From an uncultured Clostridia bacterium (GTDB taxonomy: Bacteria > Bacillota > Clostridia > Christensenellales > Borkfalkiaceae), in contig CANREF010000007.1 in the NCBI GenBank assembly GCA_947629575.1, positions 1 through 64,000 of the forward strand: a DNA stretch of 64,000 nt. The letters are read 5' to 3'. Below, piece after piece: positions 1 to 34,257 of the stretch. The notes under the pieces were generated by a model. The model saw nothing but the letters and a program-made list of their open reading frames with translations. It was not told where the DNA came from and did not search any database. The position numbers and the translations under genes are program-made. Positions within the stretch are counted from its first letter, which is position 1; every line of letters begins with the position of its first letter.

Positions 1-59
1 TCCGTTGTCCCTCCTCTCCCCAAAAAAATACTTCGTCTTTTTTTGGAGACCCCTTTTGC
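1..59 (-). repeat. Structured element next to rnpB, copy 2 (cut by window edge)
   Basis: Read on the minus strand, this is base-for-base the same as the first 59 nt of the element at 153-270, at an offset of 211 bp. It holds the first hairpin, with A7 and T7 arms around a GACGAAGTA loop. The rest lies beyond the left edge, so a longer tandem array is possible. It follows the partial rnpB 3'-end copy at 126-154 and the hairpin at 92-125. Confidence 0.75.
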
Positions 60-91
60 TCGACAGAACCCGTCTTACTTCTTATCTTATT

Positions 92-154
92 ACATAGCCG
101 CCCCGCGAATGCGGGGCGGCTATGTGATCCGACCGGACCTGTAAGCCGGGTTCT
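92..154 (-). repeat. Partial duplicate of the rnpB 3' end plus hairpin
   Basis: Positions 126-154 repeat exactly the last 29 nt of the rnpB gene (335-363), 209 bp away. On the minus strand this copy is followed by a perfect 15-bp-arm hairpin at 92-125. That hairpin differs completely in sequence from the one following the real gene at 301-336 but sits in the same place. This looks like duplication of the gene end together with its downstream hairpin slot, not a second functional RNase P RNA. Confidence 0.8.
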
Positions 155-270
155 TCGTCGGGACAAACTTCGCTTTCAGCCCTTCCCGCTCCGCGAAAAG
201 GGCATCTTCGCTCCGTTGTCCCTCCTCTCCCCAAAAAAATACTTCGTCTTTTTTTGGAGACCCCTTTTGC
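153..270 (-). repeat. Structured element next to rnpB, copy 1 (about 118 nt)
   Basis: Minus-strand order: hairpin 1 (226-259; A7/T7 arms, loop GACGAAGTA), then a 7-bp stem pairing 216-222 with 160-166 and enclosing hairpin 2 (179-203; GCCCTT/AAGGGC arms), then an ending CGACGA. The same architecture and the same loop core occur at 32671-32778 beside tRNA-Pro. It sits between two copies of the rnpB 3' end. It has no convincing protein-coding capacity. I do not recognise it as a known RNA family. Confidence 0.6.
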
Positions 271-300
271 TCGACAGAACCCGTCTTAGTCTTGCTCTTA

Positions 301-336
301 TCACAAAGGCGTCCCCACACGGGGACGCCTTTGTGA
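301..336 (-). terminator. Hairpin at the 3' end of rnpB
   Basis: Perfect 16-bp inverted repeat (TCACAAAGGCGTCCCC, 4-nt loop) directly abutting the RNase P 3' end. There is no T-run after it on the minus strand, so it may act as a processing or stability hairpin rather than a classic intrinsic terminator. Confidence 0.6.
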
Positions 337-725
337 TCCGACCGGACCTGTAAGCCGGGTTCTGTCGAGCGCGGTCATTTATCTACGCCTACCGTCGCCG
401 ATAGGCTCAAGCGTTATTCACGGACTTCCTCGGGCGGGCAACCCTTGTGAAGAAGCCCCAAACTTGCATCGGACGGGGTTTACATGGCACGGGGCGTTAC
501 CGTCCCGTCGGTGAGCTCTTACCTCGCCTTTCCATCCTTACCCGCCGCCGCGGAGATCTCTCCCCGTGGGCGCCCTTTCAAAAGGGATTCGGCGGGCGGT
601 CTATTTCTGTTGCACTTTCCTTAAAGTCACCTTCACCTGACGTTATCAGGCGTCCTGCCCTGCGATGCCCGGACTTTCCTCATCGCGAATTTCTTCGCGC
701 CGCGACCGCGTAGTCCGCTCGGATC
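335..725 (-). ncRNA. rnpB: RNase P RNA, bacterial type A
   Basis: Catalytic RNA of ribonuclease P, which removes 5' leaders from tRNA precursors together with the RnpA protein. The minus strand carries the conserved 5' block GAGGAAAGTCCGGGC just inside the start and the 3' block ACAGAACCCGGCTTA near the end. The ends pair as helix P1 (GATCCGA with TCGGATC), which fixes the gene at 335-725, 391 nt, a normal type A length. A TATAAT box at 732-737 puts the start of transcription at about 725. It is divergent from pyruvate kinase. The downstream side carries unusual partial copies of its own 3' end. Confidence 0.95.
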
Positions 726-2300: not shown

Positions 2301-2658
2301 GCGAAAAATCTTGCTACGCAATCTTTTCCGCGAGGAAAAATGCTTTTCTATCAATGCAATCGGCTCTCAAAATCGCTTTGTAAAAACAAAAAGCGCGAAG
2401 TATCGCGCAAATGTTGTCCCGCAGCGAAGAAGCGTGGTTCTTCTCGCGGAAGTGATTTTGTCATTTCGAGCCGCGCGGAACGCGTGTGTCGAGAAATCTC
2501 ATCCTTATTTTTTGCGAAAAATCTTGCTACGCAATCTTTTCCGCGAGGAAAAATGCTTTTCTATCAATGTAGTCGGCTCTCAAAATCGCTTTGTAAAAAC
2601 AAAAAGCGCGAAGTATCGCGCGAATGTTGTCCCGCAGCGAAGAAGCGTGGTTCTTCTC
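2301..2658. repeat. Two direct copies of a dispersed intergenic repeat
   Basis: A segment of about 146 bp at 2301-2446 recurs at 2514-2658 (213-bp period) with few changes. Each begins with a hairpin (TCGCGGAAAAG against its complement around TTGCTACGCAA) that also appears at 57525-57567 and 60050-60090, and each ends in GAAGAAGCGTGGTTCTTCTC, also present inverted at 52155-52180. The 68 bp between copies resembles the common TCATTTCGAGC...GAGAAATCTC intergenic palindrome. No gene is seen in 2229-2669. Confidence 0.8.
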
Positions 2659-32645: not shown

Positions 32646-32798
32646 TGAGGTGTAGCGCAGTTTGGTAGCTGCAAAGGTTTCCCGCAAAAAGGCGAAGCAT
32701 TTTTGTGGGAGGAGGAGACGCCGAGGGCAAACGGAGCTTTTCGGAAGAAAAGCGTGAGAAGCACTCGTGCGGCGACGAGGTTAGGGACCAAGAGGTCG
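32646..32798 (+). pseudogene. Broken tRNA-Pro copy split by a structured insert
   Basis: Positions 32646-32669 match the first 24 nt of the intact tRNA-Pro exactly. A 109-nt insert follows, then 32779-32798 matches its anticodon-stem, loop and variable region (20 nt). The D-stem 3' half is missing and the copy stops before the T-arm; the complete tRNA begins 5 nt later. It cannot fold as a tRNA. The insert is the structured element described next. Confidence 0.85.
32671..32778 (+). repeat. Structured element inserted in the broken tRNA copy
   Basis: About 108 nt. Hairpin 1 at 32681-32709 has CCCGCAAAAA/TTTTTGTGGG arms around GGCGAAGCA; a CGCCG/CGGCG stem (32719-32723 with 32770-32774) encloses hairpin 2, GCTTTTC/GAAAAGC (32736-32753); it ends CGACGA. 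The same order of hairpins, loop core and end occur in the element beside rnpB (153-270), although the stem sequences differ, which is the pattern of a conserved RNA structure. Confidence 0.6.
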
Positions 32799-32802
32799 AT
32801 AT

Positions 32803-32879
32803 TGAGGTGTAGCGCAGTTTGGTAGCGCGCTTGGTTAGGGACCAAGAGGTCGCGTGTTCAAGTCACGTCACCTCAACCA
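32803..32879 (+). tRNA. tRNA-Pro, anticodon AGG
   Basis: A complete 77-nt cloverleaf. The acceptor stem TGAGGTG pairs perfectly with CACCTCA; D-stem GCGC/GCGC; anticodon stem CTTGG/CCAAG around the loop TTAGGGA, giving anticodon AGG with G37; T-stem GCGTG/CACGT with loop TTCAAGT; discriminator A and an encoded CCA (32877-32879). The D-arm GCGCAGTTTGGTAGCGC is the proline type. A at position 34 is unusual for a bacterial proline tRNA. A long terminator follows at once. Confidence 0.93.
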
Positions 32880-33007: not shown

Positions 33008-34003
33008 CTACTCATCGTCTTTCGGGAAAAATCGCAGTTTTTTGATTTCTTCGAGCTGAAATTCTTCCGAAAAGTGTTTGTAAACGGAGCTCGTCATGTC
33101 GCTGCGGTTAACGTGCCCCGTCCAAACGTCTACGAGCGCTTTCGGAATCCCCATCTCTTGGCAATACGTCGTAAAGGTATGTCGCAGATCGTAGAGATGG
33201 TGCGCGGGAAAATCCCGCTTGAACACGTTGGACATCACTTTGTTGTCGGTCGCGAGCTCCTTCTCAGAAAGTGGCAGGTATTTTCTTAGCTCGGGCGCGA
33301 TCGGGATCTTGCGATAGGTCTGCTTCTGACCTTTGTAGCATTTCCCATTCGCCACAGTGACAAAGTTCTCATCAAAAGTTGCACTGTGCAGTTCGTTCCT
33401 ACGGATTCCGGTGTAAAGGAAGAGGATGAATTGCTTTCGATAGTGCGAAGTCTCGCATCTCTGGATGAAAGATATGACCTCTCCTCGGGAAAGCGCTGCA
33501 CCATTCTTTTTCTGGTGCTTCGGGATCTTGACAAACTCCACGGGATTCTGTCTGATGATCCTCTCCCCTATTGCCGCTCGCAAAATCTCTTTCAGAAAAA
33601 CTTTTACACTTTCGGCGGTCCTTTCTTTTCCCTGCGCGAGGATCCCATTCAAAAGCTCCTGACATCTCATCGGGGTGATGTTTTTGATCGGCACTTCCCC
33701 GAGCTGCGGAAGAATGTGAATCTTGAGCTGCCGAAGAAGCGTGGCATACGTCTCCTCTTTGACGTTTACCTTTTTCACCGTTTCAAAGTATCGGAGTGCA
33801 AAATCTCCGAAAAGCTGTTGCTTCCTTGGCGCTGCTTGCTCTTTCTTTTCTTCATTCACGCTCCGGGCCCAATCCCGGAAACGCTCATGAACTGCTTTTT
33901 TGGTTTTTGCTGTAAATTGAACGTTGTACCCCTCCCGACGATAACGGATTTGGTATAGTCCGTCGGGTGTGATTCGGAGTTTCCCATCTTTAAGACGCGG
34001 CAT
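33008..34003 (-). CDS. Tyrosine-type site-specific integrase
   Basis: Recombinase of an integrated element. The 331-residue protein has an N-terminal arm-binding part (GLYQIRYRREGYNV.., AP2-like), a SAM-like core-binding domain (65-160) and a catalytic domain with Arg201 (LYTGIRRNE), YDLRHT (Arg274), His297 (WTGHVN) and nucleophile Tyr308 (SSVYKHF). The position, 129 bp from the 3' end of tRNA-Pro and pointing towards it, is typical of elements integrated at tRNA genes. The start at 34003 follows AGGAGGAG; a TTG at 34105 would add 34 residues without a good site. The left att site is not resolved. Confidence 0.9.
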   Translation of the reverse strand: MPRLKDGKLRITPDGLYQIRYRREGYNVQFTAKTKKAVHERFRDWARSVNEEKKEQAAPRKQQLFGDFALRYFETVKKVNVKEETYATLLRQLKIHILPQLGEVPIKNITPMRCQELLNGILAQGKERTAESVKVFLKEILRAAIGERIIRQNPVEFVKIPKHQKKNGAALSRGEVISFIQRCETSHYRKQFILFLYTGIRRNELHSATFDENFVTVANGKCYKGQKQTYRKIPIAPELRKYLPLSEKELATDNKVMSNVFKRDFPAHHLYDLRHTFTTYCQEMGIPKALVDVWTGHVNRSDMTSSVYKHFSEEFQLEEIKKLRFFPKDDE

Positions 34004-34101
34004 TTTTGCTATCTCCTCCTGCGAATAGTCAAGCGCCGTTTCTCGGGATTTCGTTTCACTGCCGAAATTTGGAAAAAGTATGCCGTCACGCTCTTCGATG
34101 T

Positions 34102-34257
34102 TCAAAGGCCGCGGCGGGTTGCTTGGATTTTTTTTACTTCAGATTCATACGCGAGCGTGAGCGCAGGCGCATATGCCAAATCCTGATAAAGCTTTCCGAG
34201 CGCAGTCATCGCGCTCATCAGCAGTTCCAACCGTTCTTCATCTGTCAAGAATGCCAT
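34102..34257 (-). CDS. Small protein upstream of the integrase, possible recombination-directionality or regulator protein
   Basis: A 51-residue protein (MAFLTDEERLELLMSAMTAL...) with a good AAGGAG site 8 nt before its ATG. It lies 98 bp before the integrase start and is probably co-transcribed. It is helical and charged, without a helix-turn-helix that I can recognise. By position it could be an excisionase-type factor, but this is only inference. Confidence 0.55.
   Translation of the reverse strand: MAFLTDEERLELLMSAMTALGKLYQDLAYAPALTLAYESEVKKIQATRRGL

Follow-up and report, generated by a model that had tools for sequence, protein, structure and literature searches.

Results

A structured element lies within duplicated pieces of two stable-RNA genes

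The window, that is, the whole 64,000-nt stretch of DNA from an uncultured Clostridia bacterium that was analysed, carries copies of a structured element, hereafter E, beside rnpB and beside a tRNA-Pro gene. On the rnpB side, where features lie on the minus strand unless stated otherwise, the intact target gene, encoding class A RNase P RNA (335..721; Rfam RF00010, 280.5 bits), is followed by a terminator-like hairpin identified by sequence reading (302..335). Next, on the plus strand (269..283), the region around the rnpB junction recurs as an inverted copy of 15 nt, made up of 7 + 8 nt about the cut point gctcgac|agaacccg. E itself occupies 155..268 (104.7 bits), with its core at 155-261 and the leader AAAAGGGG at 261-268, and is composed of a P1 hairpin, GAGGAG at 222-227, a P2 stem at 216-221/161-166, a P3 hairpin, and a terminal CGACGA at 155-160. 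It is followed by a duplicated rnpB 3' piece (126..154), identical at 29/29 positions to 335-363, which are the last 29 nt of the gene, and by a second terminator-like hairpin (92..125) with a stem sequence unlike that of the first. Then a second inverted 15-nt copy of the junction region on the plus strand (58..72) and a second copy of E (1..57) are found, the latter truncated by the contig start since window base 1 is contig base 1.

On the tRNA-Pro side, where all these features are on the plus strand, the pieces flanking E lie upstream of an intact tRNA-Pro (AGG) gene (32803..32879; found by ARAGORN and as RF00005). A truncated tRNA-Pro 5' piece corresponding to nt 1-24 (32646..32669) is followed by E (32670..32778; 85.6 bits), whose leader TGCAAAGG starts at 32670 and whose core spans 32680-32778, and an internal piece of the tRNA, from about nt 31, begins immediately past CGACGA (32779..32798). 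Unlike the rnpB side, this copy has no inverted target copy. These findings bear out the initial annotation, which had described the two elements as sharing one plan and as sitting inside duplicated pieces of stable-RNA genes. Just downstream of tRNA-Pro, at 33008-34105 on the minus strand, a tyrosine-recombinase-like integrase ORF with an HLYDLRHTF motif was noticed by eye, and tRNA-Pro therefore probably also serves an integrated element as its attachment site. Elsewhere in the window, solitary P1-like hairpins, in which the second half of E is absent, are found at 2302-2330 and 2511-2543 (minus).

E folds into two hairpins with strong covariation

Read toward CGACGA, E displays a leader A(n)GGG(G), P1, AGAGGAG, P2 with P3 as inner hairpin, and CGACGA. 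P1 is a stem with A/T arms and a tip that is mostly C(GNA)G, GNA triloops accounting for 110 of 138 P1 tips. GAGGAG could lie opposite CGACGA and continue P2 through G-C and tandem G.A pairs. In an alignment of 45 copies, compensatory double changes affect 22 of the 27 stem pairs, which upholds the earlier observation that the stems differ in sequence while pairing is kept. In the same number of copies, pairing cells reach 96.1%, versus at most 52.0% on sliding, and double-changed cells number 217, versus 65.1 in shuffles. When six copies were folded one by one, each was better than 200/200 shuffles as DNA, and at most 1/200 shuffles was equally good as RNA. For the rnpB-side and tRNA-Pro-side copies, the z scores were -4.05 and -5.28 as DNA and -4.74 and -3.75 as RNA, with 200/200 shuffles worse in every case. 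No Rfam family was found on E at the gathering score, relaxed searches returning sub-threshold matches alone. It is close to certain that E represents a real family, namely a DNA repeat of about 110 bases with two hairpins that is dispersed in the genomes of many Clostridia.

E is widespread in Clostridia

A nucleotide search using the rnpB copy of E as query gave matches in 16 of 41 genomes, in one genus only. Using a covariance model, we found E in 95 of the 101 genomes of the genus, where the copy numbers per genome are to be read as "at least" values, in 53/151 genomes and 33/91 genera at the order level, and in 62/291 genomes and 42/180 genera at the class level. There are 14 model matches in the genome to which the window belongs (G000). 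The exact core pattern of E occurs in 61 stretches of named records, with carriers named as Angelakisella massiliensis, Oscillibacter valericigenes An411, Lachnoclostridium sp. An196, and Dysosmobacter and Christensenella metagenome-assembled genomes (MAGs). Phage records contain no match to the rnpB copy and, for another copy, one partial match covering 37% of the query. Two IMG/VR contigs (L331 and L332) carry E, and no tRNA was detected within the stretches examined.

Several arrangements of E were seen along the way. One E-bearing locus is shared by four named genera (L133, L159, L165, and L182); judging by eye from a small membrane protein, it is apparently located on a conjugative-type element, on which copies of E may travel. 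Tandem arrays are present in L174, which has four copies and a tRNA-Arg at the end, and in L166, and the inner copies of such arrays seem by eye to be devoid of the CGACGA end. A relaxed profile search detected 104 matches to the left half only of E among the loci.

E is placed with precision at stable-RNA genes

In the genome of the window, the base after GACGA is within a few nucleotides of tRNA or rnpB sequence for 10 of the 14 copies. Of the other four, one is truncated at the start of the contig and three lie elsewhere, among them one that adjoins, by eye, a repeated groEL 3' end. Among 155 distinct copies in the fetched loci, the right junction falls on tRNA, rnpB, or tmRNA sequence in 78, and the test used finds no stable RNA there in the other 77; this set is not random because the first loci came via a query containing some rnpB sequence. 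The corresponding figure is 116 in an enlarged set of 242 copies, which takes in the rnpB survey loci, chosen on account of rnpB. These 116 junctions comprise 69 internal ones and 47 at gene ends, the latter consisting of 18 at a tRNA 5' end (16 at nt 1), 27 at a tRNA 3' end in antisense, and 2 at a tmRNA 5' end. Certain points recur, with tRNA nt 1 sense (16) and the tRNA 3' end antisense (27) being joined inside genes by tRNA-Leu nt 26 antisense (15), tRNA-Arg nt 36 antisense (4), tRNA-Pro nt 31, 35, and 36 sense, and tRNA-Thr nt 52 (4). The recurrence of sites across species may in part reflect inheritance of a single event. Junctions with tRNA genes are on both strands (43 sense, 49 antisense), and the junctions with rnpB are sense in 22/22 cases.

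Comparable placements are seen in other lineages. In O. valericigenes An411 and one Oscillospiraceae MAG, the tmRNA as delimited by Rfam begins 3 nt past GACGA; at L151 and L161, tmRNA was missed by ARAGORN and found by Rfam above the gathering score. E terminates exactly ahead of tRNA-Leu in a Lachnospiraceae record, and directly abuts the 5' end of rnpB, as placed by Rfam, at L311 in another family of the class (genome G434). Class-wide, mostly no stable RNA was recognized at the E junction in the 24 loci inspected. Two of the five copies inspected in a single-contig genome (G222) adjoin tRNA 3' ends. Right flanks without stable RNA are slightly more structured than controls, the folding z being below -2 in 21% of 120 versus 12% of 186.

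In a survey of 65 full-length rnpB loci of the genus, two of which have less than 70 nt of downstream sequence, E is present 49-91 nt downstream on the same strand in 19 loci and inside the gene, at about nt 145-159, in 4 (G019, G020, G047, and G062), 3 of which also carry a downstream E, for a total of 20/65 loci. In one more genome (G043), E is at +103 from rnpB on the opposite strand. Given some 40 copies in 1.7 Mb, we estimate that chance alone would place less than one E within 500 nt of the 65 rnpB genes. As judged by eye, rnpB sequence starts the right flank of E in 17 of the 19 downstream loci, with 9 junctions at gctcgac|agaaccc, 7 near aaat|gaccgcg, and 1 elsewhere.

It is close to certain that E favours stable-RNA genes. 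The initial annotation had proposed building a covariance model, listing the neighbours of its hits, and comparing the element with Rfam: this has produced many more copies, strong enrichment at tRNA, rnpB, and tmRNA genes, and no Rfam match at the gathering score. It had also named the grounds on which it should be abandoned (no further hits or covariation, hits scattered without link to RNA genes, or a known Rfam family), none of which came true. As a side observation, a second dispersed repeat, gctcgtgccgcgcttag ... gcgcgcggggcg, lies on the right side of E in L125, L014, and L016; in L125 it borders a partial tRNA-Arg copy, a hint of another element with the same habit.

E is often found at the joint of a duplication and next to an inverted copy of its target

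The start of the right flank is repeated left of E in 51 of the 155 copies, and 43 of these 51 repeats begin at the first base past GACGA, under a filter that admits repeat starts up to 12 nt off and counts tandem arrays. E therefore often marks the seam of a duplication, with one copy of the gene staying intact, and the duplicated pieces can extend through the terminator into the DNA downstream. Since its sites differ and duplications accompany it, it is very likely that E has moved.

Using a loose search (at least 11 nt), we found an inverted copy of the target left of E at 48/69 internal junctions versus 2/47 end junctions. When targets were swapped between gene types as a control, the mean was 2.23 and the maximum 7 over 200 trials, versus 48 for the real targets. 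Target matches in direct orientation occur near 21/69 internal junctions, as nearby duplication would yield. The cut point is spanned by 41/48 inverted copies and not by the other 7; their total length varies, and the commonest reaches past the cut are 7 nt (14/48) and 13-14 nt (14/48). At either of the two principal junction sites in rnpB, the inverted copy usually matches that site; G064 is an exception, its inverted copy being that of the other site. The inverted copy follows the gene variant of its own genome, for rnpB in G009 and for tRNA-Thr in four loci; none was found in L078 and L093 in this stricter own-variant test. The copies of E located within rnpB also lack one, as do the pseudo-tRNA-Pro copies joined at nt 31. 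In three tRNA-Thr loci (L041, L043, and L301) it is present twice, and because L041 and L043 have one occurrence with no E behind it, the inverted copy may pre-date E.

DNA is tentatively favoured as the substrate, and four candidate helpers have no match in G000

According to PMC4686876, DNA mini-hairpins with a GNA loop show extraordinary stability, the Tm of GCGAAGC being 78 C. In our GNA energy comparison, the energies were nearly equal for all triloops under the parameter sets used. The proportion of GT/GU wobble in covarying pairs is similar in E (3.3%) and in rnpB (4.1%), and wobble pairs make up 1.7% in P2 alone. Since tRNA junctions in both orientations and GNA tips favour a DNA-level element, albeit not decisively, we lean towards single-stranded DNA as the substrate. 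The all-sense rnpB junctions (22) are more naturally predicted by an RNA-level model and count against single-stranded DNA, as does the fact that E folds well as RNA too. The view from which this work started, of a small mobile RNA-structured element that targets stable RNA genes, is supported as to family, covariation, and targeting, whereas present-day mobility and action as RNA are conjectural.

The Y1 transposase model (PF01797) has no match in G000, G001, and G005-G009 and is present in 7/26 genomes; the reverse transcriptase model RVT_1 (PF00078) has none in G000 and is present in 7/26; TnpB (PF07282) is found in 0/26; and IS110 (PF01548) has no match in G000 and occurs in 3/26 genomes, 2 of them over the cut-off. 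We rejected all four as helpers of E, their Pfam models being without a match in G000. The E model gave a best E-value of 0.52 on the Y1 and reverse transcriptase loci, and a search among the loci for a gene-bearing (split) E gave one weak candidate pair only. One option is that G000 lacks the mobilizing activity today.

Discussion

Our preferred reading, to which we assign a probability of roughly 0.4, takes E to be a small mobile element that is non-autonomous and recognized by its folded shape, probably as single-stranded DNA. As a proposal for the detailed mechanism, DNA would be cut at a structured position in a tRNA, rnpB, or tmRNA gene, at one of its ends or at one of the recurring internal points, and the CGACGA end of E would be joined there by an enzyme supplied in trans or by the replication and repair enzymes of the host. 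The opposite end of E would be joined just beyond the gene. With an internal cut, the stretch between both joins would be duplicated, so that one intact gene survives, and the freed 3' strand would fold back before joining, leaving the inverted target copy beside E. Tandem arrays would arise via repeated events at one site.

A bolder and clearly less probable version is that E belongs to a class-wide, gene-less Clostridia family that homes to stable-RNA genes, in which E would be a self-programming guide plus scaffold, internal insertions would be marked by target-complementary sequence, and the enzyme would be unlike known transposition and guide systems. We give slightly less credence to a plainer form, in which the inverted copy functions as a guide. 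E would then be a scaffold that carries sequence complementary to the target on its left and the target on its right, and it would steer an enzyme that cuts or recombines DNA to the parent gene. The presence of the inverted stretch at 48/69 internal junctions, its fidelity to the gene variant of its own genome, and its preferred reach of 7 nt or 13-14 nt (14/48 each) are what a guide would lead one to expect; its near absence at end junctions (2/47), its variable length, the copies that do not cross the cut, and the distribution of TnpB (0/26 genomes) and IS110 (not in G000) are not.

An equally doubtful proposition is retro-insertion, whereby E RNA and stable RNAs or their fragments would be copied by an end-jumping reverse transcriptase and the cDNA integrated at the parent gene, which would put junctions at natural RNA ends such as the tRNA 5' end, the CCA end, and those of tRNA halves. 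Junctions at natural RNA ends (tRNA nt 1, the CCA end) and in the anticodon region fit this scheme, as does an E 3' end that is sharp with a 5' end that is less regular. However, duplicated pieces can run past the terminator into downstream DNA, RVT_1 is absent from G000, G001, G005, and G006 despite 14-34 E model matches in each, and the reverse transcriptase of G009 resembles by eye that of a diversity-generating retroelement. Since reverse transcriptases are present in 7/26 genomes, a helper that has since been lost is possible.

E might instead be inherited vertically as part of stable-RNA operons, with a role in processing or regulation and under selection at leaders and trailers, the duplications being side products; we hold this to be about as improbable as retro-insertion. 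Such a role would suit the exact contact with tRNA nt 1, seen in the Lachnospiraceae record as well as in several species, the compensatory changes in the stems, and the identical rnpB fragment adjoined by a different terminator stem, but it fits poorly with antisense tRNA junctions about as frequent as sense ones (49 versus 43), with the 77/155 copies whose junction shows no stable RNA under the test applied, and with E being inside or close downstream of rnpB on the same strand at just 20/65 loci. Finally, although some copies are near contig ends in draft assemblies, an assembly artefact or chance repeat has almost no chance of being correct, being already contradicted by strong covariation, by identical junctions across many separate assemblies, by the two of five inspected copies at tRNA 3' ends in single-contig G222, and by the E next to tmRNA in O. 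valericigenes strain An411.

E, which on our preferred reading is a mobile element recognized by shape, constitutes a large family of structured repeats that has no model in Rfam 15, and no earlier description of it was recognized among titles and abstract openings of the open-access literature. Its placement at essential RNA genes is unusually exact, even within rnpB, and its many natural junctions make its mechanism readable from them. In these genomes, fragments of tRNA and rnpB may derive from an element and are not necessarily random debris.

Several known systems invite comparison. Repetitive extragenic palindromes (REP/BIME), associated with RAYT transposases of the IS200/IS605-type Y1 class, are short palindromes in high copy number with motifs flanking their hairpins and a likely single-stranded DNA substrate. 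E is similarly short, palindromic, and present in many copies, with short conserved motifs by its hairpins and probably single-stranded DNA as its substrate, but it has two hairpins, a preference for stable RNA, and often long target duplications, and no Y1 transposase is found in G000, G001, and G005-G009. In contrast to the duplication-free insertion of IS200/IS605, 51/155 copies of E have their right flank repeated on the left; no such repeat was found for the remaining copies, so this difference concerns part of the family. Rickettsia palindromic elements are small palindromic selfish repeats also found within RNA genes, and E resembles them by description; they belong to a different phylum, and we know of no target-derived inverted copy in their case. 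In IS110 bridge RNA and TnpB guide RNA systems, target-complementary stretches lie beside a structured scaffold, much as in E, but a TnpB domain is found in 0/26 genomes and IS110 in 3/26, with G000 not among them. Target-primed non-LTR retroelements, which have a sharp 3' junction and an irregular 5' junction and duplicate their target, share all three features with E, in contrast to which G000 has no reverse transcriptase. Lastly, phages and islands integrate at tRNA and tmRNA genes and retain an intact copy. E uses such genes and keeps an intact copy too, but, unlike these integrating elements, it is gene-less, measures only about 110 bp, and enters the 5' end, the 3' end, or the interior in both orientations.
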